Virus record (IMG/VR): IMGVR_UViG_3300025118_000052
Coordinates: 1 to 38,464 of that record
Source: a virus
Reading direction: 5' to 3' (one strand)
Length of the DNA: 38,464 nucleotides
Part shown: positions 7,801-38,191 of the stretch, piece by piece
Numbering within the stretch: position 1 is the stretch's first letter
Layout of the letters: each line of letters begins with the position of its first letter
Program-made: the position numbers and the translations under genes
The notes under the pieces: model-generated
Told to the model about the DNA's origin: nothing
Databases searched by the model: none
Seen by the model: only the letters and a program-made list of their open reading frames with translations

Positions 7801-10800
7801 TATTTCCTGTGCCTAAAGTTTCTACAATTTCTACCGTAGGGGCCTTACTTCCCCCTTCTTTAGCCATTTCATTTAATAGGTCTTGTGTTTTTGTTTTAAA
7901 TTCTGGATTTATATCCCAATCTTTCGTCGTTTCATTGTAGGTTAAAGCTGACATATCACCGAGCCCCTGCTTTTGGGCCTCCATTATTGTAATAGTTTGG
8001 ACTGTTTCTTTTAATGTCTTTATTTTATCCTTAAAATTAAATAGACCCAACTCATCTTCTTTTGCTTTCTTTTCTAACTCTTTTATTTTTTTCTCAATCT
8101 CGCCTATAGCTCGACTATTTTGACGAGATGATCTCCATAGAGTTCTAGTTGCTGCATCCCTTTTTGCAGTTTTGTACATTATTCCTTTCGTTCCATATCC
8201 CCAAAATAGAACACCATTTTTTATTACCCTTTGAGTAACCTCGTCCAAATCCCCATAATGATGATGCCACCATTGATTAAAAGAATCCTGATCAGTTATA
8301 TCAAGAATAATAGGCTCAACAATACCTGTTGCAATTTCAGTCGCGACTACACCACCAAGCGAAGCCTTTATACTTATATCTATCATCGCAGCAGACTTAG
8401 GTCGCAATTTAGAAATGATTTTTAATTTCTGTGTCGCATTACCAAAAATACTAAATGTAGCACCAGATCCTGTATTAAACCCAGCTAATTGAGTTTCAGC
8501 TTCCATTTTAGCAGCTGTCATAACATAGAACATAGCCTTATTAACCCCTGTGGATGTTTTATTTAATCCATTTAAATACATGCGTACGTACCTACTATAT
8601 TTATTTAGATTAGCAAGACCTGCGGCTGTACCTAAGCCACTTTCTATTAAAGCAAAAGATACCGCTAAATCAGCGGCTACTGGTGCAAATCCCCCAACAG
8701 TTTGTCCCCATCCTTCAGCACCCCAAACATTTACCGCCAAAGCCTCTAATTCTTCAGGAGTAATTTTAACTGGAGTTATACCTTCATCACTTCTAACCTC
8801 ATTAATTTCACTTATTAAATCCCTATAGGTATCTAATTTATATCGACTCTTACCTAAGCCTTTACTTCCACCTCCAAAAAATAAATTTTCATCTCTTGCT
8901 ATTTCTCTGTCAGTCTCATCTAACATACCCATAAGACCAAATGATTTAGCTGTATTACTTGCAGTACCCCAAAATCCAGTCTCCCCGCCAAGTTCTATTT
9001 CTTCTTCTTGTTTATTAAGGTCAGGTTGTATATTTATTTTTTCATATAATACCTCTAGCTTATCTTGGTTCGCCATCATCCATTCATTATGTAAAGCAGC
9101 AGTTCTAATATCATCGTCTCCTAATCCTGGAAATACTAAACCATATCCTCCAGATTCACTTTCAGGACCTCTGCCAAACCAAAAACCATCCTCATCCAAA
9201 TATTCAGCTTGCCAGCCAGCTTGATATTCATTAAACCCCTTTTGTTGACGTACTATATTCAAATACTCATTTAAAGTTATGTCTAGTGAATCGCCACTCA
9301 CGTCATATCCTTTTTCCTCTAATAGAGAATATACTAAATAATTGGCATCATAATCATATGCTGTTTTAGGCTGCCCATCGTTTAAATTACTTTTTAGTTT
9401 AGTTAAATCCACAGATAAGAATGTATTACAAGCATCTTGCTGCTCTAATAATCTTTGTTTCTGTAAATTTTTATAATACCCAGCCAGATTAGTTAATTCA
9501 CTAATATTAGTTATTCCATTTTCTTGTTCAATTTCTTCTGTAGCAGCTCGTAATCTTTTCCATTTAACTTCATCGATATCTGCGTCCTCAGGTCTTTCAC
9601 CTTTATAATTATATTGTAATATATCACCCGGAACTTTATCTAATGCTGTTTTATCTTTAAACCACTGGGCTTTATGAGTATTATAAGAATTGTAAAGGGC
9701 TTTTAACTTTTTGGCATCTTTATCAGAAAGATTCTGGGTATTCTCTAATTCCAGAATTTGATTAGAAATTTTTTCTAATTCAAATGTAGTAGTGTTTAAT
9801 TTTTTTATAATGTTAATACGTGGGATTAATTCAGGGTTGTCCTGTGTAAACATAGTATATAACCCTGTATCCATTGCTTGTACTAATCCCATTTCGTCAG
9901 GCAAAGTACCTGCATTAGCCGCGGCATTAAAATTTTCTTGGGCTATTTTATATTTAACTTTAGTTTCTGCCATATCAAAGACTGGGGTCCATGCACTAAA
10001 ATAATCTTGGAAAGTTTCTTCGTCCATGAAAAGACCATTATCTTTCCCTAATTTTTTATTTAATAAATCCCATACTATATCATTAAATCCCTGTTTCTGC
10101 TCAGGGGATAAGGAGGCCTCATCAATATTTGATATATGGTCAAGAATATTTGGATTAATCCCATAACTTTCTGGGCTACTTAAAACATCCAACCATAAAC
10201 CCTCTGCTTTATTTTTTATATTAAATAGCAAATCTGTTCGCTCGGTAAAATTTAATTTCTGACCATTTAATGTAGGATATACTGTCTGCCCAACATCATT
10301 CAAGCCAGCCTTGGTAGTTTTTACTCCTGCTCCAACAGCATCGAGATTCATGCTATAATCCTCTTTTAATTGCTGGTTCTTTACATTAGTATAGTATCTT
10401 TGTTTTAAAAATTCTTGTTGCTCTGCACTAACATCAAGTTTTTCAATATCACCTGGGGATATTTGAGTTAAAATTGACATAAAAGTCTCATAAGCATCAG
10501 GGGAATCTTCTGGGACTGAAGTAAATATACCACCTCCATCGCGATTATATTGAGTATCAAGAACAATATTCTTCCACATTCCGCTTACCTTATCTTTTAC
10601 CATAATAGCATCTAAACCAGGTTGAGACTGTTTAATTTCAATATCATCTCCATAAACCAGCTCCAGCCTCTCTATTAACTCGTCTTCTGGTACATTATCA
10701 AAATTTTCTCGAGAAATATTTTTAAATTCTTTTTTTGGCTGTGTCTCCTGAATTTTAAACCCTTGAGAGGTTATATAATCTTGGAAAGAAACATTTGCAT

Positions 10801-10897
10801 CAATTTCCCCCTCAATCTTAGCTTCAGAGAATATTCTATCCATAGCTTGTTTAGAATATGTATGTCCAGTGCTAGGGTCTAGGTATTCCTGTTCCAT
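1829..10897 (-). CDS. Giant (3022 aa) virion/ejection protein with HAD-phosphatase domain and zincin-like motif
   Basis: This is the largest gene here. The first ~700 residues are charged and helical with no recognised domain. Gly/Ala-rich hydrophobic stretches at about 735-765 and 835-865 could contact membrane, and a coiled coil follows at about 925-965. At 1065-1070 there is HEMIVH, like a zincin motif but with one extra residue, with a Glu pair at 1135-1136 that could be a third ligand. At about 2168-2330 all four HAD motifs are in order: D2174-F-D2176-D-T2178, T2260 in ILTARP, K2295/K2297, and D2316-D2317. The last ~650 residues resemble the helical C-termini of very large phage virion proteins that accompany DNA into the cell. 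Its place after the tail and internal virion genes supports packaging in the particle. HAD activity is predicted from motifs; ejection is inferred. Confidence 0.85.
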   Translation of the reverse strand: MEQEYLDPSTGHTYSKQAMDRIFSEAKIEGEIDANVSFQDYITSQGFKIQETQPKKEFKNISRENFDNVPEDELIERLELVYGDDIEIKQSQPGLDAIMVKDKVSGMWKNIVLDTQYNRDGGGIFTSVPEDSPDAYETFMSILTQISPGDIEKLDVSAEQQEFLKQRYYTNVKNQQLKEDYSMNLDAVGAGVKTTKAGLNDVGQTVYPTLNGQKLNFTERTDLLFNIKNKAEGLWLDVLSSPESYGINPNILDHISNIDEASLSPEQKQGFNDIVWDLLNKKLGKDNGLFMDEETFQDYFSAWTPVFDMAETKVKYKIAQENFNAAANAGTLPDEMGLVQAMDTGLYTMFTQDNPELIPRINIIKKLNTTTFELEKISNQILELENTQNLSDKDAKKLKALYNSYNTHKAQWFKDKTALDKVPGDILQYNYKGERPEDADIDEVKWKRLRAATEEIEQENGITNISELTNLAGYYKNLQKQRLLEQQDACNTFLSVDLTKLKSNLNDGQPKTAYDYDANYLVYSLLEEKGYDVSGDSLDITLNEYLNIVRQQKGFNEYQAGWQAEYLDEDGFWFGRGPESESGGYGLVFPGLGDDDIRTAALHNEWMMANQDKLEVLYEKINIQPDLNKQEEEIELGGETGFWGTASNTAKSFGLMGMLDETDREIARDENLFFGGGSKGLGKSRYKLDTYRDLISEINEVRSDEGITPVKITPEELEALAVNVWGAEGWGQTVGGFAPVAADLAVSFALIESGLGTAAGLANLNKYSRYVRMYLNGLNKTSTGVNKAMFYVMTAAKMEAETQLAGFNTGSGATFSIFGNATQKLKIISKLRPKSAAMIDISIKASLGGVVATEIATGIVEPIILDITDQDSFNQWWHHHYGDLDEVTQRVIKNGVLFWGYGTKGIMYKTAKRDAATRTLWRSSRQNSRAIGEIEKKIKELEKKAKEDELGLFNFKDKIKTLKETVQTITIMEAQKQGLGDMSALTYNETTKDWDINPEFKTKTQDLLNEMAKEGGSKAPTVEIVETLGTGNKGAYEFKDNLLQINPKALNSRGQLIFNQGVVPHEMIVHWAVRSRLANNPQLLASWTPKLKESIQAILKDKLSVEKIDKEILEAYGKWNETTGKWEMNEGLKAEELLAFYVEWMANPVNYYSTIGNNFLKNQKNEFLNILEGSGLKKYTEKSIAQLSSVEALEVMARLANEMTFGRSGGSKIRVAQNLDQLKDPLLETRILEEGQPKPGEYKILDIKTSSKELGSEVSKKLKDIATRNKIQEDKIINEGAWKLSEVENIELANEIKNTLIENNQGLVEMLANRAYNNPNIAGLEAGLKIPLKDWRQGFNQQLIEMINSYEPIPQDGSSKGKQVPFGAYIAKNLPRRYGNILAAEKGKTPESGGRITKDIIAETATTELAGDLILARELNIKNEVLTNFENKLKEEIDLAADLDLLSYEKFRTTWPKGIVNDIFGRTREQREKYIRDNAEALMASFPDLNQNVSGKSLGVGTNVLNFMYGEGPRAKMSEGAGGAGLNLREKQTRTPQELIDFLGLNIKPGQKGYTNSQAKIKGVINLAMRGLANQILRDPSKTKLQESLTDFSVLETNVREALEVWSKRNQTELELVEQGKLEKIRESDLNILEKRVDKEINKFLREAKARLRDGLSGELYSKDSKILNQRAWNEIRDQKPTNLTELRNIVGKEEYKVLSSFAKSILKEVRNMFKGDMNARDNLYILRQAMELNMSVSRYKKEYMDQIGGWTALSKELKTTDTTIPSLAHSKSALEFSRALIKKLPAFGNLPKDMQATFMKTFGFGDHSGGFVVNGKKFNLEAHGLSRGQYSELMTEVFGPGWQSNKAVPQHWKNAYSPGNWGKALNTRIAKILKSNKDQSIKFQEIENLFKKEGIDFDAAVQSNLNVLKDTYVAIGTLALEMKNEGKSNTEILQSIQDFFKVQTNRSGGILKTLVPVLFLDILPKKGKKGQYAKKSENYYTEHMRELFNANKQFIRHTKKLLEGNIKLDIYNKRLDRGIQDLMQGLISARTSEIKDAPGKTFQWYYDPILSITMGGKRSLKNTISLYENNIYNPTTLVDMVYDTGSRYAMDIINKTPGKDLTAIGVQVKTQMQNPKNYDAVNKKASKLSTYAGMNYSKDLSTGEYLGQLKNRDKSLELAREIKKKTKGISVFDFDDTLAKTKSKVIVNLPYYAPGKMTESQMRISPAEFAKRYSDLESMGASFDFREFEKVIGGTKGPLFDLAVKRQGKFGTGDIYILTARPQAASPAIHAFLKGMGLNIPLENIVGLENGAPKAKSDWILKKASEGYNDFYFADDAYKNVKAVQDVLSVIDVKSKVQQALMSKNLNNEYNKVIEESFGVEKFKDYSQTKGRTVGAKHKESWWLPASASDLPLLMDRIAGKGKQGDAHQKLFKETLYDPYAQAEMNITEAKLSILRDFKELKNQSSNVVNQLKNKVGDYSVEQALRVRNWDILGIDIPGISARDKKMLVDHVNKNSELVAFGDQIISMQKGVYNKPGRYWETGNLLIDINNTIKGDLRDQYMKQFNDNVTDIFTPEFYNKLEAVQGPKYVESLKHILSRIKRGSNRTGKESRIETKMLNFLNNATAGIMFLNTRSAILQTISSFNYINWTDNNPFKAAARFANLPQYVKDWNRLMNSDWAVARRKGTRINIQEAELVEALEGQQNKGDALLGYILEKGFILTKMGDTFATATGGATFYRNRINSYKKQGMSEKVAERQAYEDWVELSELNQQSARMDKISMQQATPLGRVVLAFANTPMQYARLQKRAYLDLVNNRGDAKTNISKIVYYAFVQNLIFNAMQNALFTEIYDEPGVSDDKTIRIANGMVDGILRGGGIYGAGVSTIKNTALKLYNESQKKRSKYSNAAWETLGISPPLKSKVSKVRNGFAALEYNMKEIKSSGFALDNPAYLAAGNLTAGFTNVPLDRLIIKLQNIQDSFNEELQWYERLSLLGGWPEWQLGIDDGKTAKYFGDDSIEDTTNKKEKKIMSQADLDLLFKINNP

Positions 10898-10899
10898 AA

Positions 10900-12768
10900 T
10901 TATCTTCTTGGTTCTACGTTAACTCCTATTTTCTTTAATTCTTTTAGAATCTCATTCCATATTTCACTCCCTTTATAATCAGCGGCCAACTCCCCATTGT
11001 ATTTAAGTTCTACCCCAGCGCTTTTTTTATTATAATTAATATACCAACCCTGCTCTTTTAATTTAGATAAAACAGCCTTGCTCAATGTACCACCTTCCTT
11101 GTGAGGATAAACATACATATCAAAACTATGAGAGGAATTATTCTTCTTCGGTGATAATTTTATATTTACTTTATCATCTCCAATTTTAGAATTTGCAAGC
11201 CATTGACTAACACTTAAAGGAGCAGATAAGCCTTCAACTTCATATGTTAAATCGTTTATTTTTGTAATAGTTTTATTAACAGGTAACCCCACCAGGTTTG
11301 TATTGCTAATTACTCCATCATATCCTAATGCAATTTTTTGAGCGCCTGATATAGGTAAAGGCTGGTTTTGTTTTATTGGCGATTTTTCAGGTGGTGGTGT
11401 AATAGAAGTGTCGGGATTTGCTACTTCATTAGCCTTTTGCCATTCCCCTTCGGCATTTGCTGTTGTACCTTTTAAAAATTCCCATGGATTAACAGATATT
11501 TCATAACCCTCTGCCCCCTCAGCTGTAAAACTTCTCCAATCACCGTTATACTTATTTTCAAAAATTTCTTTATAATTAATACCTCCATCTACATAAACAC
11601 CATCTGATAAATACGGTTTACCATCTTTTAATTCTACCATCAATTGCATACTCTCTAATCTAGTTGTAGCTAATGCATCTTCAGTTAGTTTATCACGAGT
11701 AGTATCCCATAGACTACTATCTGCGGTGTTCCAAGGCTTAACTCTATTTACTTCATTTCCCTCATCATCATAATCTATTAACCAATCAATTTCACCATTT
11801 TCATCATAGTGCGGCTGGTAATCTTGGTATATTACATTAGCATAATAGGAATCAAAGTTTGATGAATTCATAATAGATGGTTGCGCTTCAGTTCCGCTCC
11901 ACATAGTAGTTCCTTTATGGACATTTCCAAACCCGACTTGACTAAGTCCGCCATGATTTAGATTTTGTTTTAATAATTCTTTAATTACAAATGTTTCATC
12001 TTTGTTTTTTCCAGTAGGTTTCTTATCATATCCTATAACAGGTACAGGAAAGGTGCGGCTTGAATTAGCGGCTGCTGCATCAAGAGTGCCTTCTAAATCT
12101 ATAGAATTATAAGTGGATTTTCTTCTTATTATTTTATTTAAATTTGTAAAGATTGTTTCATCATCGCCTTGTTCAAATGTTCCAACCCCTATAGTCTCTA
12201 AAAAAGTATTTAAATCTAAATCATAATTCCATGGTAACATATTACCTGTAGGATCTCCATTCCCATCTCTTTCTTCAATTTCACCTTGACCCGAAAGATA
12301 GAGAGTACTACCATCATTCTTCATAGTAACACTACCATTATTCTTTTGCATATGGGATAATAAGGTTTCAAAATTTGGATCATTAAGTTTATCTAGTTCT
12401 CCTGCTCCCCCGTATTTTTCAACTGTTGCCCCTAAAGCAGCTATATAAGGAGCAGCTTTTTTCCAAGTATCCCATAAGTTATTGATATTATCTTGGATTT
12501 TATTGCTCTCGGTAGAGTCCATATCGCCATTAACCCACCTGTTTTGAGCATCACTATATTCATTTATTTTAATTCCCCAAAAATCTTTTACATGATCAGA
12601 AAATTGTGGTGCATTAGCATAGGTTTTCATTGAATCCACCTTCTTATTAAAGCTAGATGCATCTAGTTGGATTTGTTTTTGTAATGCTAATTGTTGCGCA
12701 TTATATCCTCCTCTATTTCTGGGGGCTGGAAAATTAAGTTTATCACTAATACTGGTATAAAAACCCAT
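10900..12768 (-). CDS. Putative internal virion/cargo protein (622 aa)
   Basis: I do not recognise a family. The protein is soluble-looking, without signal peptide or membrane segments. The N-terminal ~130 residues are Gln/Lys/Asp-rich and helical; the middle is Asn/Asp-rich with many short turn-like stretches; a Pro-rich linker lies at about 450-475; and the last ~150 residues look like a separate alpha/beta domain ending in a Lys/Glu-rich helix. The ATG at 12768 follows the 298-aa gene's stop by two bases, and its own stop is two bases from the giant gene's start. Three consecutive genes of this size after the tail genes are where podoviruses encode proteins stored in the head and ejected with the DNA, so cargo protein is the best inference. 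Confidence 0.7.
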   Translation of the reverse strand: MGFYTSISDKLNFPAPRNRGGYNAQQLALQKQIQLDASSFNKKVDSMKTYANAPQFSDHVKDFWGIKINEYSDAQNRWVNGDMDSTESNKIQDNINNLWDTWKKAAPYIAALGATVEKYGGAGELDKLNDPNFETLLSHMQKNNGSVTMKNDGSTLYLSGQGEIEERDGNGDPTGNMLPWNYDLDLNTFLETIGVGTFEQGDDETIFTNLNKIIRRKSTYNSIDLEGTLDAAAANSSRTFPVPVIGYDKKPTGKNKDETFVIKELLKQNLNHGGLSQVGFGNVHKGTTMWSGTEAQPSIMNSSNFDSYYANVIYQDYQPHYDENGEIDWLIDYDDEGNEVNRVKPWNTADSSLWDTTRDKLTEDALATTRLESMQLMVELKDGKPYLSDGVYVDGGINYKEIFENKYNGDWRSFTAEGAEGYEISVNPWEFLKGTTANAEGEWQKANEVANPDTSITPPPEKSPIKQNQPLPISGAQKIALGYDGVISNTNLVGLPVNKTITKINDLTYEVEGLSAPLSVSQWLANSKIGDDKVNIKLSPKKNNSSHSFDMYVYPHKEGGTLSKAVLSKLKEQGWYINYNKKSAGVELKYNGELAADYKGSEIWNEILKELKKIGVNVEPRR

Positions 12769-12770
12769 AA

Positions 12771-13667
12771 CTATATTCTTTTAAATTTAACATCAATTTT
12801 AGAATAATCAACCATGTCATAACCATCTATATGTTTTGCAACTGCTACTTGTGGAATTTCATCCGACATAACTCCTTGGTAAAGCCCCTCGCCGAATATT
12901 TTATTAATATACTCAAATGCATATATTTTCAATCCACTAGGAGAATATCCTATTAATTTTATATTTTGTTTTAATCTACGATCAGAAAAAGCCATAGCCA
13001 TAGTTCCTATTCCATTTATAATATTAGCTGTAGCATCAGCCCCTGCAAGACCTGCAGCTTCTTGCCACAGATTAGCTTGCTGGCGATGGTAAGCTATTTG
13101 ATTATTCCACCTCTCTTCTTGCATTTGTGCTGTGAATGCTTTCCCCGCGGCTCTTGCTTCTTGTATTCTTTGTCCTTCACCAATATTAATTCCTTGTATT
13201 CTCATTTGCTCAGCAGTAACTCTAGCCTGAAGATTAGCTTCACCCTGTGCTCTTAATTTTGTATTTGCAGCTTCTTGTTGTTCTATATTAGCAGATACAC
13301 CTTTTTTACTTTGTAATGCAGCTTGAGCCAGAGCAGTAGCTCCACCAGCTCCTGTGCCTGTAGCTCTTAAAGTGTCTAATGTATTGGCTAAAGCTAAATC
13401 TGCTTCCTCAGCCTGCATTTCAGCTGCTTGAGTGGCTACTTGTAGATTAGCTAGAGGATTATTCATATTATTACTCAAATCAGTTGCCATCCCAGAAAGG
13501 TCCGCATGACCTGTATAAGGATCAACTGGGTCACCCCTACCCTCTATAATAGCATTCATGGCATTTCTAGCCGCATCAGCCTTTTCTTGGGCTCCTTGAT
13601 TCATAAACATAGCGTCCATTCCAGCCATGATTTGCATTCCACCCTGTATAAATCCACCTCCTGTCAT
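12771..13667 (-). CDS. Internal virion-type protein with C-terminal S74 intramolecular chaperone-like domain
   Basis: This 298-aa protein has two parts. Residues 1 to about 220 are Ala/Gln/Met-rich, helical and coiled-coil-like, with a Gly/Met-rich hydrophobic start, similar in style to the T7 gp14 class of internal virion proteins. The last ~72 residues begin FSDRRLKQNI and include YAFEY and GVMSDEIPQVA, the signature of the endosialidase-type intramolecular chaperone (peptidase S74), which trims itself from trimeric fibres. The Ser and Lys of SDRRLK, expected for self-cleavage, are present. The domain is shorter than usual. A fibre role is possible, but the helical body and its place before the cargo genes favour an internal or tail-tip protein. 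Chaperone assignment is strong; the role of the body is inferred. Confidence 0.8.
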   Translation of the reverse strand: MTGGGFIQGGMQIMAGMDAMFMNQGAQEKADAARNAMNAIIEGRGDPVDPYTGHADLSGMATDLSNNMNNPLANLQVATQAAEMQAEEADLALANTLDTLRATGTGAGGATALAQAALQSKKGVSANIEQQEAANTKLRAQGEANLQARVTAEQMRIQGINIGEGQRIQEARAAGKAFTAQMQEERWNNQIAYHRQQANLWQEAAGLAGADATANIINGIGTMAMAFSDRRLKQNIKLIGYSPSGLKIYAFEYINKIFGEGLYQGVMSDEIPQVAVAKHIDGYDMVDYSKIDVKFKRI

Positions 13668-28941: not shown

Positions 28942-31161
28942 TTATTTTATTAGTTTTGATAAATTTTTTCCTGAGCTATTATCATATTTAGCAAAATTTA
29001 ATACCACTGCTTCTTTTTCAATTTTAGCATAAGGCTTATACCTATGCTGATTACATGCCATTAAGGCTAACCCTGAACTAATAGAAGCATCATGAGAAGT
29101 TCTATTATTTATATTAAATCTTGCCCAATCTTCTAGTGTTCTTTGAAAATACATATCTCCAAAAGATTCACCTAAATTCCCAACAAATGTTTCAATATAA
29201 GTTTCAATAGCTGCGGCATGAGCTTGCTTTATATCTTCACTTGAATTAGGTATACCACCTATTTCTCTTTCTGTGACAGATAGCTTAGTAGCGACTCGGT
29301 CAGGCCTATTAATAGAAAAATGCCTATATCCTCTACGTTTAAAATAATACAAAAGTCTAGGTTTGTTATTTTCCGCTAAGATAGGCATTCCATAGAAGAT
29401 ACATGCCATAAGCACATCTTCAAAAAATATTTCAGCCGTTTGTGGTCTAGCTATATACTCTAAAAAGAAATGATTTGCCGGGACGTCTTCCATAGACCAT
29501 TTTGTTAATCCATGCAGAGACCCGTTAGATCCTCTTTTATCTACTGTTCCTGATATATCATATGGGTCACAACCAAATGCCCCAAGATGTTTATTACCAG
29601 GATGTTTCATTCCCTTTTTTATAATTACGCTATTTTGGAGATTTTTAGGCGGTAACCAAGAAATATAAAATCTTCCTTTAGGATTAGGCATAAATAACAC
29701 TCGGCTATCTCTAACACTATCCTCCCACATAAAATTTCCTCTATTAACTATTTTATTATAACTTATATCTTCATTCCAATCTATTTGTTCATAAATCTTA
29801 GTTAGATTAAATAAAGATTCTTTAGTTTCATCTCTAAATGCATGCTTTTCAGTACGTGGGAATTGACGATAAAATTCATTTAATCCGTCAGCATCATCTT
29901 TTAACCCCTCAACTTCATTTTGCCAGTAGTCAATAACCCCGATTCTAATTTGTCCCCCATGAGGGCCGAAAGCTGGTTTTCTTGGTGTTTCGAAGACAGG
30001 TATGCCATAAGCATCAATGTATCCCTCGTAGTTCCATTCCATAGGTATGAACAAACTATAGAGTCCTGAACTAGTCTGTCCGTTGGCGTTTCTCTTTGTA
30101 ACATCTGAAGCATTATATAATTTTTTAAAGTTATCTCCTCCTTTATCTAAAGCATTTGATGTTGAACCCATCATACACTTACCTATAATTCTACTACCAA
30201 GTCTTAATGTTGTTTTTGTAACCCTCCAGTTATTTAATATATTGTTAGGCCTTTCCCATTTACCTGATTCATCATGTACCAGTAGTTTTAATTTTTCACC
30301 ATCATAACTATTATCTCCGGTATTCTTCCAGTCAATAGTTGTATCTAATCCCTCTAGTAATTCTCCTTTATCTAAAGCAGTTATAGATTTTCTAGTAAAT
30401 TTAGAAGCTGGTACTCTATACGCAAGTTCTGTTTTAGGTCGATCCATACCATCTTGAATCGGTTTAAAAAAGAATGGATAATTAACTGAAATTGGTACAA
30501 CCTTATCTGTAAACATCTTTTTAGCATCAGGCCCAGTCTTAGATAATATTCCATATCTTGAATCACTTGCTAATGTAGCTAAATTTACAACTTCACCTGA
30601 GGCCATAAAAGAAAATCCAGAACGTCTATTTTTTAAATAACACATTCCATAACATCTTATATCAGCTTTACAGGCTTCCCAGAATATAAAAAATAATCTA
30701 TTTGCTTCCCTAAAGTCGGGTGCTCCAACATCAATCTTACTCCATTGTAAATACATATAATGTGTACCGGTAAGATAAGTATCAATGTTTTTATTCTTAA
30801 ACCAAAATCCTTCGTCACGTCTTTTAAATTCTTCATCTATATAATCGTGCCATTGTTCTTTAAAATCCTCTGGATATTCTTTCCATTCAAAGACAGTTTT
30901 AATTCTATTTAAAACTTTAGGATATTCTGTTCTTTCCCAAGTATTATTTTCAAACCTAGTAATTTGTTTTGGGATTTTAGGTAATGCAATTTTTAAATTT
31001 TGTATTTCATAAATTTCCCCAATCTCTCCTGTCTTACTAATAACTATAACGTCATGATCTTCGTTATATCCATATTTCCATTTCTTATAACGATTAAGCC
31101 TTTTAATAACCTTAGGCTTAATATGATCATCTAATATTTTATATAAAGTTTGCGTGTACAT
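28942..31161 (-). CDS. terL: Terminase large subunit (TerL), with atypical P-loop
   Basis: The 739-aa protein has an ATPase half and a nuclease half. Walker B is clear: hydrophobic LLVH then D297-E298. The expected Walker A position reads K177-N-R-R-S-G182-F183-S184. The lysine that normally follows Gly is replaced by Phe, but a Lys and two Args precede it. The nuclease half shows acidic residues in the right order: D532 in GAFGCDPYD, E597 in ILAENNKP, and D643 in SSEDIKQAH, consistent with an RNase H-fold headful or cos nuclease. It should package DNA through the portal encoded immediately downstream. The start overlaps the upstream stop as TAATG; a GGAGG lies 8 bases before it but falls inside that upstream gene. 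Confidence 0.9.
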   Translation of the reverse strand: MYTQTLYKILDDHIKPKVIKRLNRYKKWKYGYNEDHDVIVISKTGEIGEIYEIQNLKIALPKIPKQITRFENNTWERTEYPKVLNRIKTVFEWKEYPEDFKEQWHDYIDEEFKRRDEGFWFKNKNIDTYLTGTHYMYLQWSKIDVGAPDFREANRLFFIFWEACKADIRCYGMCYLKNRRSGFSFMASGEVVNLATLASDSRYGILSKTGPDAKKMFTDKVVPISVNYPFFFKPIQDGMDRPKTELAYRVPASKFTRKSITALDKGELLEGLDTTIDWKNTGDNSYDGEKLKLLVHDESGKWERPNNILNNWRVTKTTLRLGSRIIGKCMMGSTSNALDKGGDNFKKLYNASDVTKRNANGQTSSGLYSLFIPMEWNYEGYIDAYGIPVFETPRKPAFGPHGGQIRIGVIDYWQNEVEGLKDDADGLNEFYRQFPRTEKHAFRDETKESLFNLTKIYEQIDWNEDISYNKIVNRGNFMWEDSVRDSRVLFMPNPKGRFYISWLPPKNLQNSVIIKKGMKHPGNKHLGAFGCDPYDISGTVDKRGSNGSLHGLTKWSMEDVPANHFFLEYIARPQTAEIFFEDVLMACIFYGMPILAENNKPRLLYYFKRRGYRHFSINRPDRVATKLSVTEREIGGIPNSSEDIKQAHAAAIETYIETFVGNLGESFGDMYFQRTLEDWARFNINNRTSHDASISSGLALMACNQHRYKPYAKIEKEAVVLNFAKYDNSSGKNLSKLIK

Positions 31162-32477: not shown

Positions 32478-32930
32478 TTATTTTTTGAATATACTTGTTA
32501 CCTTTTCTCCACTTCGTCCACCAAAATAAGCCAAAACAACGGCCATCATTACTTTCTCGAAAGTGTCATTCCATAATGAATTAATTTGAAAAGGAATGCT
32601 TTCTACGCTATCTAAAATACCAGCTAAAGAAAATATAACTATACACCATACTAAAACTAGTGGACGTACATTTTTACTTAACCAAGAATCAGACATTGAG
32701 TCTGCTTCCCATCTTGAAGTAATAGCTTGTATTTCTTTATTCTGTTGTTCGTGTATTAACTGCTGAAGTTTAATTTTATCATCTGCACTTATATCAGATT
32801 TAGTTATAGCTTCTATAGCTTCCTTAGGGGAAGTAAGACCCTGCAATACATTCCCTAATGTAGGATTGATTACAGAGGCTGCCCCAAATAATAATTGTCC
32901 AACGGTGGTATCTTTAAATTTTTTACTCAC
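32478..32930 (-). CDS. Probable holin of the three-TM type (GTA-like)
   Basis: The 150-aa protein contains 'RWEADSMSDSWLSKNVRPLV' (73-92), which closely follows the diagnostic W-x-AD-x-x-SD-x-WLSK-x-x-RP motif of the 3-TM holin family first noted in gene-transfer agents. Two hydrophobic segments are clear, at about 88-108 and 124-140. An N-terminal stretch at about 9-30 (VGQLLFGAASVINPTLGNVL) may be the third or an amphipathic helix. It would open the inner membrane at lysis. The start is GTG at 32930, eight bases inside the end of the previous gene, giving tight coupling. No endolysin gene is recognised in the window, so its partner is elsewhere or unrecognised. Confidence 0.75.
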   Translation of the reverse strand: MSKKFKDTTVGQLLFGAASVINPTLGNVLQGLTSPKEAIEAITKSDISADDKIKLQQLIHEQQNKEIQAITSRWEADSMSDSWLSKNVRPLVLVWCIVIFSLAGILDSVESIPFQINSLWNDTFEKVMMAVVLAYFGGRSGEKVTSIFKK

Positions 32931-34395
32931 AATCCCACTCTAGACATTTACAGTCCTTCTTATCTTTATTTGTTTTTCTATTCTCTTTAGCAGATTTCTT
33001 CTTCTGTTTATTTGATTCTTTCTCGTCTAGTTTCTTTTGTCTTTCATCGGATATTTTTGGTACACACTTACAGTCCGCTTTACTCCATCTTTTATCCTCA
33101 TCACAACCAGCCGCAGGTTTTTTACATCTCTTCTTTACATCACCACCTTTTTCCGTTACAGTATAATCAGCATCACCATCAGTTTTTTTACATGCTCCAT
33201 CTCTCCATGTAAATCCTTCTTTCTTATTACATTCTTCTTTTGTAATTGTTACATCAGTTTCTGATTCTTTGCTTTTAATTGTTGCTTCTATATCCTCTGT
33301 TCCTTTTTCTCCTTTTACACAATCTTTTTTCTCAGCATCCCACACATAACCTGCGCCGTGCTGCTCTACACATGTCTTGTTCTTAGTTTCTCCTAATTCT
33401 TTTTTAGTTTTAGCAACTGCACAGGTTTGACATTCTTTACATTTAGCAGAACTATTTTTTCTTGATCCATCAGCATTACAACAATCTTCAAATCTATGCT
33501 TTTCACATCCTTCAGCTGCTGTTATCTTTTTTCTCTCTTCAGTACCTTCTTCACCTTTCTTTACTAAATCTTGCTCTATTGCTGTTGTTGTAATACCATC
33601 ATCCTCAGTTACCGTTTTTCTATAAGCTTTTTCAGTCATACAATGCCCTTCATGCCAAACCATTGGGGGTTTACAGCTTTCTTTATCATCTTGATTTAAA
33701 GGAGAACCTCCCGCCTGGGCATGTGCCTTTAAATTATTTAATGGAGAAGCTCCACCTTCATTCCAATTTAATGGTGAACCATATCCTTGATTAAATGGAG
33801 AATACTTCATTTTAAATGCTGAAGATTTCATAGAAACCTTTTCATTTGCGTTTAAACTGGCTATTAACGCTTGTCTTTGTCTATCTACATCCTCGTGGCT
33901 AGTACCTTTTATATTTTCCACTCTCTCGGTTTTTATACCCTCTTGAGTACCTTGACCAGCCCAGCCCCAGCCTCTTTCTTTTTTAACTTTTCTTTTCGTT
34001 ACATCGACATTATCACCAGCATCTTCAATGCCTGGCGTTATAGTCTTTTTTCTTTTTGTTACTTCTTTATCATCGTAAGTTCCACCTTCAAATCTTCTAG
34101 TCCCTGCATCAGCACCAGCTATTGCTGTTTTATCATCTATACCTGCTGTCATTGCTTCAGCTGCTGATCTAGCTAGTCTTCTACGTGATTTTCCAGTTTG
34201 CTTCCCCGGAACTTGGGATCCTGTTCGCCCAACAATATCGTATCCGCCCCCTTCTCTTTCGGTAGCTGAAAACCCACCAGTTTCTTTTACAGCTCTTTTA
34301 ATAGCTCTTTTAGTTTGTCTATAATCTTTTCCCCTACCTTTTCTAAATAGGTTTAATCCTTTGTTTAACGGTGATCCGTTCATTTTAAATGCCAT
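32923..34395 (-). CDS. Low-complexity 490-aa protein with SPLN motifs and C-W-C repeats
   Basis: Three regions are visible. Residues 1 to about 190 are Lys/Arg/Gly/Thr-rich and probably disordered, starting MAFKMNGSPLNKG. Residues 192-235 contain four 'SP(L/F)N' motifs (199-202, 207-210, 217-220, 231-234), the first inside a repeat of the N-terminal sequence (AFKMKYSPFNQG). From 241 to the end it is Cys-rich, with repeated Cys...Trp...Cys units (C241/W247/C252, C342/W352/C359, C389/W397/C402, C424/W437/C442, C484/W487/C489) separated by Lys/Glu/Thr linkers. No enzyme family is recognised. Compact disulfide or metal-binding mini-domains on a flexible chain would suit a surface-exposed virion protein or a scaffold-like organiser. 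Confidence 0.8.
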   Translation of the reverse strand: MAFKMNGSPLNKGLNLFRKGRGKDYRQTKRAIKRAVKETGGFSATEREGGGYDIVGRTGSQVPGKQTGKSRRRLARSAAEAMTAGIDDKTAIAGADAGTRRFEGGTYDDKEVTKRKKTITPGIEDAGDNVDVTKRKVKKERGWGWAGQGTQEGIKTERVENIKGTSHEDVDRQRQALIASLNANEKVSMKSSAFKMKYSPFNQGYGSPLNWNEGGASPLNNLKAHAQAGGSPLNQDDKESCKPPMVWHEGHCMTEKAYRKTVTEDDGITTTAIEQDLVKKGEEGTEERKKITAAEGCEKHRFEDCCNADGSRKNSSAKCKECQTCAVAKTKKELGETKNKTCVEQHGAGYVWDAEKKDCVKGEKGTEDIEATIKSKESETDVTITKEECNKKEGFTWRDGACKKTDGDADYTVTEKGGDVKKRCKKPAAGCDEDKRWSKADCKCVPKISDERQKKLDEKESNKQKKKSAKENRKTNKDKKDCKCLEWDCE

Positions 34396-34406
34396 AATTA
34401 AAAATT

Positions 34407-34781
34407 TTATGCGTTATAATAATTTTTGTGATTTTTCTTAAATAATTTATTTATTTTCCAAGCTCTTTTTTCCCAAGGTAGATTCTTAGCTCCTTCTACC
34501 ATATCAGCTCTACCCCATTTTTCCCAAGGTTTTTCTGCATCATCTCGCCAATAGACATATTCGTCATCATACATTAATAAGCCGTTTTTAATATCTTCCA
34601 CATGCTGCCCTTCATGTGCTTCTACTTCAGCTTGTTTAATAGGATCTAATCCTTCTTGGACTAGCACACTCCCATTCATATTTGTCTTACCCATAACCCC
34701 TGGTTCATCAGCTTGTAAATCACGCTCATATACCGGAGTGCTATCGCAGCTATACGGAGGAGGTTTCATTTTATAGCCCAT
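34407..34781 (-). CDS. Putative small zinc metalloprotease (HExxH, minigluzincin-like)
   Basis: The 124-aa protein carries H56-E57-G58-Q59-H60, the zinc-binding and catalytic HExxH motif, on a helix (EVEAHEGQHVEDIKNGLL). About 44 residues later is 'PWEKRAWKIN', with E104 and A107 forming the E-x-x-A pattern typical of the third zinc ligand in gluzincin-type proteins. This is compact enough to be a minimal peptidase domain. The N-terminus starts MGYKMKPPPYSC, which resembles a degenerate form of the MAFxMKYSPL start of neighbouring proteins. Its position among small virion genes suggests processing of head or tail proteins, but a lysis role cannot be excluded. Motif evidence is good; the substrate is unknown. 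Confidence 0.7.
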   Translation of the reverse strand: MGYKMKPPPYSCDSTPVYERDLQADEPGVMGKTNMNGSVLVQEGLDPIKQAEVEAHEGQHVEDIKNGLLMYDDEYVYWRDDAEKPWEKWGRADMVEGAKNLPWEKRAWKINKLFKKNHKNYYNA

Positions 34782-34942
34782 TATACATTGTCATATTTAG
34801 GTTTATAGGGAAATTTTTTATTTAAAAGGTCTTGTCTTTTTTTACAGCCACAGTCTTCTCCAGCTACTTTTTTAACTAAACTTTTTATTCCTGTTGCCCT
34901 AGTAATTTTCTCAATTGAATCTCCTAAGCCTCTAGATCTCAT
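34781..34942 (-). CDS. Small basic protein with a CGC motif (53 aa)
   Basis: ATG at 34942 gives 53 residues, starting MRSRGLGDSIEKITRATGIK and continuing with GEDCGCKKRQDLLNKKFPYK. The stop overlaps the next ATG by one base (TAATG). The arrangement 'LGDxIEKIT+ATGIK ... DCGCxxRxxxLNxxFPY' is one I recognise as recurrent in small phage proteins, often in marine tailed phages, with no known function. The adjacent Cys pair could bind a metal or a neighbouring Cys. It is strongly basic, so contact with DNA or an acidic surface is plausible. Confidence 0.8.
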   Translation of the reverse strand: MRSRGLGDSIEKITRATGIKSLVKKVAGEDCGCKKRQDLLNKKFPYKPKYDNV

Positions 34943-34943
34943 T

Positions 34944-35294
34944 TTATTTATCTCTATGTGATCTTTCTAAGTCGCCTTTATTACCGCCATATGTTTGCAT
35001 ATTTAAGCCTGATCTTTGACCAGTTAAATCATCTTGTACTGGAGTATCAGTAACTTCTCTTTTAGCTTCTCCCCAAAGGTTAGAACTCATATGTTTTCCT
35101 ATTTGACTTTCAGATTCCCACATATTTAAATGTGATGAATATTTAGCTTTGCCATCTCCAGAATAACGAGCTTCATGCATATGATGGGCTACGTCATCGT
35201 AACGTTCAGCCTCTTCGAGTCTTTTTACTTCATCTCTATCCCAAGCAATTCTATGAGCTGCGCCTTCGTTTAATGGTGAATTATTTTTTGCCAT
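34944..35294 (-). CDS. Small protein with N-terminal SPLN motif (116 aa)
   Basis: Begins MAKNNSPLNEGAAHRIAWDR; the SPLN at residues 6-9 is shared with otherwise unrelated neighbours. The rest is polar and Asp/Glu/Arg/His-rich, with helical segments ('DEVKRLEEAERYDDVAHHMH') and a Ser/Gly/Asn-rich C-terminus ending GDLERSHRDK. No Cys, signal or membrane segment is present, and no enzyme motif is seen; the His pairs do not form a recognised metal site. The position between the fibre gene and the CGC protein suggests a virion accessory protein. Confidence 0.75.
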   Translation of the reverse strand: MAKNNSPLNEGAAHRIAWDRDEVKRLEEAERYDDVAHHMHEARYSGDGKAKYSSHLNMWESESQIGKHMSSNLWGEAKREVTDTPVQDDLTGQRSGLNMQTYGGNKGDLERSHRDK

Positions 35295-35324
35295 TGTGTT
35301 TGTGTTTAATTGTTATTGTTTTAT

Positions 35325-36305
35325 TTATAATACTTTTTCGAAATATATTGAGTTTGGTGTATTACCTGTAGTTCCGACAGATGGGAAAGGAGTAACTCCT
35401 CCACCTGTAAAAATCATACCAAATTGCACTGTAGCTCCTGCGGCTAAAGTTATTATCTTTTCTCCGTAGTAAATTTTATCTGTTGAAGATTCTACCGCAG
35501 CTTCAGCAATTACTTCGTAACTTGTTCCATTTATATTTAATCTTCCTTCTGTTACTACATCAGCTGTTTGATCAAACCAGTTAGATATTACTTTTATTCT
35601 CCATGTTCCTGCGCCTGCAGCTCCTAATGTAAATGTAGCTTCTTGACCCGCAGCACCACCTGGTCCAGCATTTGTACATACCCATCCGTAATTAGCTACA
35701 TTACAATCTGTAACATCAATTGTAGGAGTAGGATCATAAGGTAAATTACTAAATACACCATTTGCCCAGTTTGCATAACCTACTGGAGTACCATTTGGCC
35801 ATGTGTATTCTTGCATTACTCTTGCACCAAGTGTTCTACTTATCCCCCCTGTCATATCACTATCCCCGGTTGTTAGCGTCCCCGTGGCAGTTGTTTCTAG
35901 CTTTTTATTGTTGTTAAAATATAAATCAACAGAATCGGCTGTTTTAAATGTTGCCATTACATTGCCACCAATATCATATATTTTAAAATAATTTGCTGCT
36001 CTAACAATTAAATTACCAACACCAACTTCATCTATGTAACTATTAGCCCCATCATGATATATTTCTAAAGCTGATAATGTACCAAAATTCCATTTAAAAT
36101 TATCTGGAACTACAACACCAGCAACGCCAGTCATTGTACCACCAGCAAGTGGTAAATAAGATCCAAATGGTAATAAAGGTTCTAAACTAGTTGCTAGATT
36201 TGCAGGGGTAATTTTTTTATTTACTACACCTTGATATCCTACAATATCATCAAAGTTCGCTATATCGGCTTCGGCTGTAAAAGCGGAAAATTTTATATTT
36301 GCCAT
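35325..36305 (-). CDS. Fibre/decoration structural protein with phage fibre repeats (326 aa)
   Basis: The N-terminal ~60 residues (MANIKFSAFTAEADIANFDD, then YLPLAGGTMTG at about 50-60) match the starts of many phage fibre proteins, where 'LPLxGGTMTG' introduces a trimeric beta region. Residues about 78-140 contain 'IYHDGANSYIDEVGVGNL' followed by an 'AxFKTADSVDLYFNNNKKLE' segment, the repeat widely seen in marine phage fibre and head-fibre proteins. The C-terminal ~160 residues are a Gly/Thr/Ala-rich beta domain with two Cys (in CNVANYGWVC), probably a receptor-binding or trimer-capping domain. There is no S74 chaperone here. A head fibre or tail fibre role is likely; its distance from the tail genes favours head fibre, by inference. 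Confidence 0.8.
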   Translation of the reverse strand: MANIKFSAFTAEADIANFDDIVGYQGVVNKKITPANLATSLEPLLPFGSYLPLAGGTMTGVAGVVVPDNFKWNFGTLSALEIYHDGANSYIDEVGVGNLIVRAANYFKIYDIGGNVMATFKTADSVDLYFNNNKKLETTATGTLTTGDSDMTGGISRTLGARVMQEYTWPNGTPVGYANWANGVFSNLPYDPTPTIDVTDCNVANYGWVCTNAGPGGAAGQEATFTLGAAGAGTWRIKVISNWFDQTADVVTEGRLNINGTSYEVIAEAAVESSTDKIYYGEKIITLAAGATVQFGMIFTGGGVTPFPSVGTTGNTPNSIYFEKVL

Positions 36306-36319
36306 GTTTTATTTTTTAT

Positions 36320-36475
36320 TTATTCTCTAATCATTAGATCAGCTCCATTTTCGGTTTCCATGAAATCTACGCCATTCTCCATTAAAATGAAGTTGGTGAT
36401 TGGGCCTCCCCCTGTACCTGATATATTAGGTATCGCAAGGATTGCATTTGCATTTCCAAAAATTGTAGGTGCCAT
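36320..36475 (-). CDS. Small 51-residue protein with ENG repeat
   Basis: ATG at 36475 overlaps the previous stop (TAATG) and gives 51 residues: MAPTIFGNANAILAIPNISG, a Gly-rich hinge, then ILMENGVDFMETENGADLMI. The C-terminal part is a short internal duplication of (M/T)ENGxDxM, a beta-hairpin-like repeat seen at the ends of other phage structural proteins. It lies between two structural genes with the same dense packing. A small virion or fibre-adaptor protein is plausible; no family is recognised. Confidence 0.7.
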   Translation of the reverse strand: MAPTIFGNANAILAIPNISGTGGGPITNFILMENGVDFMETENGADLMIRE

Positions 36476-36975
36476 TATTGTACTGCTATTATATCAGCCG
36501 CTGTTGTACCAGTAGCCCATACTTTATATACAGCCAATGGTAGCCAAGAGGCATTACCGATGTTTAATAAAGTTACATCATCTCCTTGAATTGTAGTAAC
36601 ACGAATATTTCCTGCTGTTCCTACAAATAATAATAATCCTGTATTAACACTAAATTGAAAATTACCATTCCCTTTATATACTACAAAAGCATTACCTGCA
36701 GCGAATATATTAACGCTGATAGCTAATTCAGTTTCACTTTTTACTTCTGTAATTATAGCATGTGTATTAGTGGTTGTGTTATATATGACATCTCCTTTTT
36801 GTACACCATCTGTTAAGAAGGTTCCAGCCGCCGCTGTCATATCTGGTGGCGGTCCTGCAGATCCTGTAGTAGCAGTACCCGCGCTGATAATTCCTGGTAC
36901 AGGAATATTTATATCATCACTAGGTATTACTGGAATTGCAGATATTGCTTGATTGGCTACGTCGTATGCTCCCAT
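36475..36975 (-). CDS. Small beta-rich structural/decoration protein (166 aa)
   Basis: The N-terminus MGAYDVANQAISAIPVIP is followed by a Gly/Ala/Thr-rich beta region. About residues 45-80 resemble a small beta barrel ('FLTDGVQKGDVIYNTTTN' then AIITEVKSETELAIS). The C-terminal ~55 residues read 'LLLFVGTAGNIRVTTIQGDD' and 'LPLAVYKVWATGTTAADIIA', a pattern I associate with small capsid-decoration or spike-type proteins in marine phages. No Cys, signal or membrane segment. It fits a trimeric decoration protein on the head or a fibre adaptor. Confidence 0.75.
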   Translation of the reverse strand: MGAYDVANQAISAIPVIPSDDINIPVPGIISAGTATTGSAGPPPDMTAAAGTFLTDGVQKGDVIYNTTTNTHAIITEVKSETELAISVNIFAAGNAFVVYKGNGNFQFSVNTGLLLFVGTAGNIRVTTIQGDDVTLLNIGNASWLPLAVYKVWATGTTAADIIAVQ

Positions 36976-36981
36976 AATTTT

Positions 36982-37167
36982 TTAATATTTACCTTTTGCT
37001 ATTTCTGTTATTGGTCCTCTTGTATAAGGTGTCATTGCTTTTGGCAATTGTATACCCCATAAACCATTACTTCGACCTGGACCGTGTGGTCTACTTAGTT
37101 GTGATAAAGGGCCATCCCATATATGTGATTCTCCTGTTATCCCTATTTTTTTACCTCTTTTTTCCAT
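36982..37167 (-). CDS. Small basic protein, unknown (61 aa)
   Basis: MEKRGKKIGITGESHIWDGP is followed by a Gly/Pro/Arg/His-rich middle (LSRPHGPGRSNGLWGIQLPK) and a short basic end (GPITEIAKGKY). It has little predictable structure and no Cys or membrane segment. The start codon follows an A/T-rich leader. It lies between two likely structural genes with short gaps on both sides, supporting a real gene. No function is assigned. Confidence 0.6.
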   Translation of the reverse strand: MEKRGKKIGITGESHIWDGPLSQLSRPHGPGRSNGLWGIQLPKAMTPYTRGPITEIAKGKY

Positions 37168-37186
37168 AATTATTTAAGTTTATGTA

Positions 37187-37951
37187 TTATCCTAATGTTC
37201 CTTCGTTATAAAAATTAAATTGCTCTCCCATACCACCAGCTTGGTTTCCATACGCATAATCATTTCCCCTGCTATCTCGGAAGCTTCGTCCCATGATCGA
37301 TGTATCGCGGTTATTCAGGTCTTGCCTGTTGATAAACCATCCCCCTCTTTGGCCCCCTCTTTGGTTATCGGCATAATCATAATTTCTATTTCCCCATAAT
37401 CCTTCTGCAGCATTAGCTCTAATTTCGTCTCCTTGAGTACTCCCCGCATAGTTCCATGCAGTATCTCCTTCTTCTATTCCCCTATCAGCCCATCTCTGCA
37501 TTCCTTCTTGCCAGTCATTACCTTTAGCAGCTGCGTACATCGCGCGCGCACTTTGTATACGAGCATCTCTACCAGCCATTCCGCCATTTTTTTGTTGATA
37601 TTCTCCTATCTCATATCCTCCTCTATTTGTTCCATCAGCACCTAGTCGCTTAGTAGATGTTCGTATATTAGTATTACTAGCACCTCTCATTGGTCGTAAA
37701 CTTGATGCCATATTTGCATTCTCTATAAAATTTTGATTAGTGCTATAAGGCGTATCCCCAGTTTGGAAAGTTCCATCTGTAATACCAGGAATATACTCAT
37801 CCTGAATACCATCAGGATTTTCAATTCCTTGTCCAGTATCAGTACCAAGAGCTGTATTAGGTGGAGCACTATTGGCTGGCGGTTGCGTAGTATTTGCTTG
37901 GGCTCCTGTTGGGGTTAGTACATTATTAATGTCAGGTAAGTTTGCTGCCAT
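37187..37951 (-). CDS. Low-complexity Gly/Asn/Gln/Arg-rich protein (254 aa)
   Basis: Residues 1 to about 75 are Pro/Thr/Asn/Gly-rich, like a disordered linker. The rest is rich in Gly, Asn, Arg, Tyr and Asp with repeated short units (NRGGYEIGEY, RGGQRGGWFINRQD, RDSRGNDYAYGNQAGG) and one helix-like part at about 130-165 ('ARIQSARAMYAAAKGNDWQE'). No Cys, signal, membrane segment or enzyme motif. Composition of this kind suits a flexible virion or head-interior protein. The position beside SPLN proteins and the fibre gene supports a structural role, but nothing more specific can be said. Confidence 0.7.
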   Translation of the reverse strand: MAANLPDINNVLTPTGAQANTTQPPANSAPPNTALGTDTGQGIENPDGIQDEYIPGITDGTFQTGDTPYSTNQNFIENANMASSLRPMRGASNTNIRTSTKRLGADGTNRGGYEIGEYQQKNGGMAGRDARIQSARAMYAAAKGNDWQEGMQRWADRGIEEGDTAWNYAGSTQGDEIRANAAEGLWGNRNYDYADNQRGGQRGGWFINRQDLNNRDTSIMGRSFRDSRGNDYAYGNQAGGMGEQFNFYNEGTLG

Positions 37952-37960
37952 AATTTTTTA

Positions 37961-38191
37961 TTAATTTATATGGATTGCTGCTAATTTAGCTTTTGCAGCA
38001 TCCCTAGTTTTAAATCTTCCTCCTTCAGTCCATACTCCACCTTTTTTATTATTAAGAATATAAAATGGTTCTGAACCTGATCCTTCGCGAATACATCCTT
38101 CCTTTGTTTCTGCACATCCTTTACCATAATTAAGTGGAGATTTTCCTCCTCCTACTTGACTTAATGGTGAATATTTCATATTAAATGCCAT
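37961..38191 (-). CDS. Small SPLN-motif protein with phage 'NNKKGGVW' domain (76 aa)
   Basis: Starts MAFNMKYSPLSQVGGGKSPL, giving SPLS at 8-11 and SPLN at 18-21. The rest is a compact domain with C26 and C33 (CAETKEGC), the strand FYILNNKKGGVW, and a helix FKTRDAAKAKLAAIH. The pattern 'w.I.nnKtGklW....y.t.e.A..al.AyHa' recurs in small proteins of diverse phages with no known function. Its N-terminus is nearly the same as an internal segment of the 490-aa protein (AFKMKYSPFNQG), pointing to a shared interaction motif. Confidence 0.75.
   Translation of the reverse strand: MAFNMKYSPLSQVGGGKSPLNYGKGCAETKEGCIREGSGSEPFYILNNKKGGVWTEGGRFKTRDAAKAKLAAIHIN

Follow-up and report, generated by a model that had tools for sequence, protein, structure and literature searches.

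Across the complete IMG/VR virus record IMGVR_UViG_3300025118_000052 (here the window; 38,464 bases, with genes nearly all on the minus strand), three neighbouring genes encode otherwise unrelated proteins that share a short, apparently disordered and mostly N-terminal peptide tag, [FY]-K-[MK]-x-S-P-[LFI]-[KNT]-[QK], which is repeated internally in some proteins. Comparison with related genomes showed that one exchangeable tag of this kind is common to many non-homologous, small, lysine-rich proteins of the late strand and to several presumed internal virion proteins. We consider it fairly likely that the tag directs late proteins into the phage head alongside the ejection proteins, for delivery into the next host; as judged from sequence, it probably works like a packing label for injected cargo.

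The core motif SP[LF][NS] was found nine times in the 30 genes (12,546 amino acids, AA) of the window. Eight of these copies lie in the proteins of 76, 116 and 490 AA, in agreement with the first-pass annotation, which had reported at least eight in three neighbouring genes, while composition-preserving shuffles of each protein averaged 0.50 copies over the window and never exceeded 5 (2,000 shuffles). The 76-AA protein contains two copies (residues 8 and 18), the 116-AA protein one (residue 6), and the 490-AA protein five (residues 8, 199, 207, 217, and 231); the ninth, at residue 1112 of the 1730-AA tail protein, could well have arisen by chance. The longer context AFxMKYSPxxQ occurs twice in exact form (MAFNMKYSPLSQ and AFKMKYSPFNQ) and once in near-exact form (MAFKMNGSPLNK), and an internal KSPIKQN at residue 463 of a 622-AA putative ejection protein had been overlooked. 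The start of a neighbouring 124-AA protein, MGYKMKPPPY, which had been called a degenerate form of the motif, proved to be a genuine half-tag, with an F-K-[ML]-type start in 48 of 53 homologues.

The terminase (phrog_6681), portal (phrog_6547), and holin (phrog_3427) define the phage as podovirus-like, with named relatives among Flavobacterium elemo phages, Cellulophaga phi38:1 and phi18:3, Maribacter Panino, and Tenacibaculum Gundel_1 at terminase identities of 30-61%; since these relatives infect Bacteroidota, the host of the window phage is presumably a marine member of the same phylum, within Flavobacteriia. For comparison, 80 loci were picked by terminase and a further 40 were found blind, using a DNA pattern for MAFKMKx(1-5)SP[LF]. 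Twenty records were read from tiles, and 18 non-redundant genomes, the window among them, were analysed with simple gene calling; the survey records are fragments and may be incomplete. In the relatives the N-terminal tag takes the wider form of approximately M-x-[FY]-K-[MK]-[KN]-x(0-2)-S-P-[LFI]-[KNT]-[QK], with starts such as MAFKMKGFSPFT, MAFKMKGWSPLNQ, MSSPFQKQFSSKSPLN, and MGYTQGNNPLSRKTSPLN on many different proteins.

Within the first 30 residues of proteins encoded on the terminase strand of the 18 genomes, SP[LFM][NKTSQH] was counted 57 times where 3.5 were expected (maximum of 10 in 200 shuffles) and F[KN][ML][KN] 51 times where 2.0 were expected, whereas the 384 genes of the opposite strand had 0 and 1 N-terminal matches, respectively. 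Chance or low complexity as the origin of the motif was ruled out by the shuffles together with this opposite-strand control. The tag is concentrated in two late clusters, the first lying 2-13 kilobases (kb) upstream of the terminase gene, and from the terminase to +20 kb the N-terminal core count was at chance level (1 versus 0.7 expected). It was not found on portal, scaffold, capsid, or tail proteins in the 18 genomes or the further loci, with counts for the terminase, portal, scaffold-like, major capsid, connector, and tail proteins at chance. The motif is thus far from equally frequent everywhere, structural and opposite-strand proteins being at or below chance. The scan pattern used to pick records accounts for 11 of the 85 tagged genes, and 73 of the other 74 are on the late strand, with 1 off it.

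Once the first 30 residues had been removed, the 85 tagged proteins fell into 71 sequence families. Their bodies are basic, with a lysine fraction of 0.156 versus 0.094 (p 1e-12), as would be expected for DNA-associated internal head proteins, and almost none matched Pfam, NCBIfam, or PADLOC, although PF19197 was matched by two tagged proteins. Two tagged proteins of 75-85 AA (L166:9370-9594 and L160:4325-4579) have an apparently DUF5872-like body (WFKEEWxTPSG..ENTFRPTKK). As a separate observation, the N-terminal arms of some major capsid proteins are loosely tag-like, with NKVPSPTKA in G013 (5851 from the terminase) and NSVPNPIKQ in G012, and by sequence the tag might mimic a capsid-protein arm.

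The tag behaves as a module. In L192-L196, close relatives of the window, the first 21 residues of the 76-AA protein hardly vary although the remaining body has been exchanged, such that in L194-L196 the tag is retained on a different body. The MAKNNSPL of the 116-AA protein is likewise invariant, with a different body in L195 and L196, and a gene in L194 at the place of an untagged 254-AA protein starts with MKKSPLS. The motif is therefore anything but absent in close relatives, which keep the tags of both small proteins. Homologues of the 490-AA protein in L194-L196 are only 37-52% identical overall with four internal SPFN/SPLN copies invariant; these repeats are kept in all of L192-L196, and the N-terminal copy is missing from L194. 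A constant 5' end with bodies exchanged behind it is also what would be seen if the tag were a non-functional or regulatory gene start, such as a hot-spot leader or translation-start module, spread by recombination. However, the codons for one tag peptide differ inside one genome (GGC TTT AGC CCA TTT ACA versus GGT TTT TCT CCG TTT ACT), serine is encoded by AGC in some tags and TCN in others, and the upstream DNA also differs. Since synonymous sites, including the six-fold serine codons, vary between tags of one genome, selection on the tag acts at the protein level as read from these sequences. The internal repeats are moreover the conserved part of a diverged 490-AA protein, and the tag also occurs on ejection-type proteins elsewhere in the genome. 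A DNA-level leader was ruled out by the codon variety and the internal repeats, and the recombination-spread 5' end as a whole, which we regard as highly improbable, is already largely refuted. What the first-pass annotation had termed an address tag on unrelated proteins is thus borne out by the non-homologous bodies, the constancy of the tag over exchanged bodies, its confinement to the late strand, and selection on the peptide.

The link to the virion comes from the syntenic structural block, which runs through the terminase, portal, 403-AA scaffold-like protein, major capsid protein, three head/connector genes, the tail gene (1730), ejA (298), ejB, and ejC (3022). We infer from gene order, distant homology, and structural annotation that ejA, ejB, and ejC encode ejection proteins with an internal location. 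The ejA profile matched Gundel_1 gp072 (5.9e-9) and phi38:1 gp099 (2.9e-4), and Gundel_1 gp072 in turn matched phi18:3 gp120 (1.1e-17); GenBank bases its annotation of phi18:3 gp120, gp121, and gp123 as virion proteins on experimental tandem mass spectrometry, and the ejA homologues of the flavophage relatives are annotated as structural. Similarly, ejC matched Gundel_1 gp074, annotated 'structural protein'. ejB was assigned mainly by gene position because its sequence diverges fast, and the locus search for ejA used a single sequence, the ejA alignment being too diverse.

Of ten further loci that have an ejA homologue, eight show the tag at its start (MAQGLYKKSPLK, MAQGLYKKSPLKVLTGG, and similar), where 0.07 would be expected, and ejB (MENSPIKQNNALIKGAG) and ejC (MKSTPLKQASA) are each tagged at the start in two; some ejC homologues begin with MSKIKSPLKQN or MKSTPLKQA. 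In G049 and G057, which have a tagged ejA and enough upstream sequence, approximately five accessory proteins each carry a tag near the N-terminus. A profile of the 60-residue ejB N-terminus recovered four small accessory proteins (E 1.9e-6, 4.9e-5, 2.6e-4, and 4e-3) and no opposite-strand protein below E 1, the matches beginning at or just after an SPFKQN/SALKQN-type motif, as in SPFKQNQALISGAGDAA versus SPIKQNASLIQGAGTAA in the ejB of the same genome. In addition, a 553-AA tagged protein (N-terminal SPLKQ) contains an SLT domain and matched phrog_342, 'internal virion protein with endolysin domain'. In untagged cultured phages, the ejB-position proteins have, near the N-terminus, AYKELTPIKE (L125 34854-36503), AYKQLQPIKP (L127 10643-12178), and YAQVQPIQG (L123 35047-36399), and such TPIKE/QPIKP/QPIQG-type stretches might represent a weak ancestral version of the tag.

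These relatives lend indirect support to one part of the suggestion that the motif is a packaging signal or an address on capsid or scaffold, in that the tag starts their putative ejection proteins and the ejB N-terminus is common to small tagged proteins. The other part fared less well, since the tag is not on the capsid genes themselves and lies upstream of the terminase. Several points weigh against head packaging. The window's own ejA and ejC are untagged and its ejB has only the internal SPIKQN, so that the virion link rests on relatives; in the first genome set only 2 of 18 genomes have a tagged ejA (ejB 2/17, ejC 1/16). The ejection-protein label depends on the lines of evidence given above, and the AlphaFold2 model of ejA is poor (predicted local distance difference test score, pLDDT, 66). 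Most tagged bodies have no assignable function, the small tagged proteins are known from genes alone, and all tagged phages found are uncultured.

Two other roles for the tag were weighed against this evidence. It could fix proteins to the outside of the particle, as head decoration, tail, or fibre components, and a fibre-like gene (326-AA protein) does flank the tagged cluster; however, among structural proteins the tag is borne by the putative internal ejection proteins and not by those of the tail or capsid, and lysine-rich bodies suit contact with DNA better, making this role very unlikely. Linear motifs commonly bind intracellular factors, and the tag could therefore engage a host or phage partner late in infection (RNA polymerase, nucleoid, membrane, or a chaperonin) with no part in the virion. 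The lysine-rich bodies could bind nucleic acid, and several relatives have GroEL-/GroES-like genes directly upstream of this cluster (labelled from annotation in elemo and elsewhere by inspection of the sequence). Such a role leaves unexplained why the tag starts ejection-type proteins and why the ejB N-terminus is common to the small proteins, and we think it unlikely.

The cluster also encodes a 124-AA protein that we predict to be a zincin-like HExxH zinc metalloprotein. H56, E57, and H60 do not vary among 16 homologues, the most distant of them approximately 31% identical, and in the AlphaFold2 model (pLDDT 88, with low confidence for the first 10 residues) the HExxH lies on a helix at residues 47-65. 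The best match to a solved structure was the HExxH metalloprotein PprI/IrrE, a weak one (E 0.28, probability 0.89, TMq 0.32), and a Pfam search with a limit of E 1 gave no match. Twenty of 21 records encode this protein, the one that does not being untagged, with 4.4 kb of sequence upstream. It is likewise encoded by 22 of 24 loci chosen by terminase, and the six named relatives have neither it nor the tag within the stretches examined. Its association with other strict-pattern tags (12/1/10/7) is suggestive and not significant (Fisher p = 0.09); the single tag without HExxH looks like a chance match, and approximately ten loci have the HExxH gene without any other strict tag, its presence thus being independent of tags. 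The invariant motif, the fold, and the co-occurrence would be compatible with the tag being mainly a cleavage or recognition site for this protein during maturation, a function that could add to targeting. Against this are the tagless HExxH loci, the weakness of the fold match, and the location of many tags at residues 5-12, where little is left to remove; as the main function of the tag we judge cleavage improbable. The untagged 53-AA protein GLGDSIEKITRATGIKSLVKKVAGEDCGCKKRQDLLNKKFPYKP, whose gene adjoins that of the HExxH protein, is strongly conserved. Coordinates are collected in Table 1.

Table 1. Features discussed in the text; positions refer to the window unless another record is named.
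Feature	Position	Strand	Remarks
76-AA tagged protein	37961..38191	-	tag MAFNMKYSPLSQVGGGKSPLN, residues 1-21 = 38129-38191
Motif copies of the 76-AA protein	SPLS 38159-38170; SPLN 38129-38140	-	
116-AA tagged protein	34944..35294	-	start MAKNNSPLN; SPLN 35268-35279
53-AA untagged neighbour	34781..34942	-	phrog_32048
124-AA HExxH protein	34407..34781	-	half-tag MGYKMKPPPY 34752-34781; HEGQH 34602-34616
490-AA tagged protein	32923..34395	-	N-terminal MAFKMNGSPLN; SPLN 34363-34374
Internal tag block of the 490-AA protein	33691..33819	-	AFKMKYSPFNQ..GSPLN..SPLN..SPLNQ
Four internal copies of the 490-AA protein	33790-33801, 33766-33777, 33736-33747, 33694-33705	-	
Terminase large subunit (phrog_6681)	28942..31161	-	anchor for the comparative survey
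ejA, 298 AA, putative ejection/internal virion protein	12771..13667	-	phrog_6121 virion structural protein; untagged here
ejB position, 622 AA, putative ejection protein	10900..12768	-	internal KSPIKQN, SPIKQ 11368-11382
ejC, 3022 AA, giant putative internal virion protein	1829..10897	-	no N-terminal tag here
GroEL-/GroES-like genes	L192 1-1293; L218 and L219 about -14 to -12.5 kb from terminase; L123 12040-13853		

Tagged genomes form a restricted group. All of them fall on one side of a branch of the terminase tree with support of 97/97, and the six named relatives fall outside, their exact place being unsure owing to long branches. phrog_6681 was present in all 40 pattern-matched records and, overall, in 59 of 59 records searched in the viral_contigs collection, short ones included. 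Because every further record checked carries this terminase, the collection may be selected on the gene, and the 40/40 result is therefore used as evidence of clade restriction only. A tblastn search of cultured phages with concatenated tag peptides, a weak type of query, gave no match, and a literature text search for MAFKMK found no paper. A bacterial origin was discounted, as the tag pattern matched four times in 84,980 species genomes, once in an open frame (integrase-like by eye).

Among known systems, the capsid targeting sequence (CTS) of phage T4 appears to be the closest working analogue. There, an N-terminal CTS is found on diverse small basic proteins (IPI-III and Alt) that are packed into the prohead and then injected, and whose bodies are highly variable, with some countering host defences (PMC3012670; PMC9026906); for IPIII, the first ten residues suffice for packaging (PMC9026906). 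As with the CTS, a short N-terminal sequence is common here to otherwise unrelated proteins. Unlike T4, the lineage is podovirus-like, with a phrog_6681 terminase; putative ejection proteins bear the tag too, and some copies are internal or in tandem. The S77 protease model PF03420 had no match in 13 records, in a search that had no positive control, and the S78 model PF04586 had none, with positive controls; [LI]xE within 30 residues of the tag was seen in 12 of 54 cases versus 10 expected, with no clear excess of LxE sites after the tag. Neither a gp21-type protease nor such an excess was found in these searches, and membership of the same family is not claimed.

Other phages offer partial parallels. 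N-terminal propeptides of ejection proteins in SPN3US and phiKZ are inferred to target them to the prohead (PMC5694885), but these giant-phage propeptides are mostly longer than 100 residues and are removed by a gp21-like protease, in contrast to a tag of approximately 10-20 residues with no protease assigned. In phiCrAss001, a Bacteroidota podovirus, gp45-gp50 are described as cargo that is held in both capsid and tail and is believed to leave the particle before the DNA; the part of that account dealing with the cargo describes no common packaging tag, unlike the proteins here, and the likeness is one of description only (PMC10172136). The flavophage relatives Elemovirus, Callevirus phi38:1, Baltivirus phi18:3, Gundelvirus, and Maribacter Panino share the terminase family and have a comparable structural module, and differ in showing neither tag nor HExxH gene in the stretches examined.

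Under the head-packaging reading, the tag would dock on a common procapsid partner, for which the portal-bound ejection-protein core or the scaffold is the most likely candidate. Tagged proteins sharing that partner with the ejection proteins would therefore be loaded and injected with them, and may act as host-takeover or anti-defence factors, while the half-tagged HExxH protein might, more speculatively, trim or mature the cargo. We advance only tentatively the further possibility of a packing code of the clade's own, apart from the T4 CTS, in which late proteins can acquire an ejection-type tag of approximately ten residues, each phage would load up to about ten exchangeable cargo proteins into its head for injection, and the tagged zinc metalloprotein would mature them.

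If head packaging is correct, a single sequence pattern in genome data would tell which small genes of this phage group encode proteins that travel in the particle and enter the host as infection begins, and dozens of families without known function (the 71 found here) would become candidate injected host-takeover or anti-defence factors. The tag would also offer a testable means of loading proteins into the particles of Bacteroidota phages, and would provide a further case of the T4 capsid-targeting principle, with a traceable source in the N-termini of ejection proteins.

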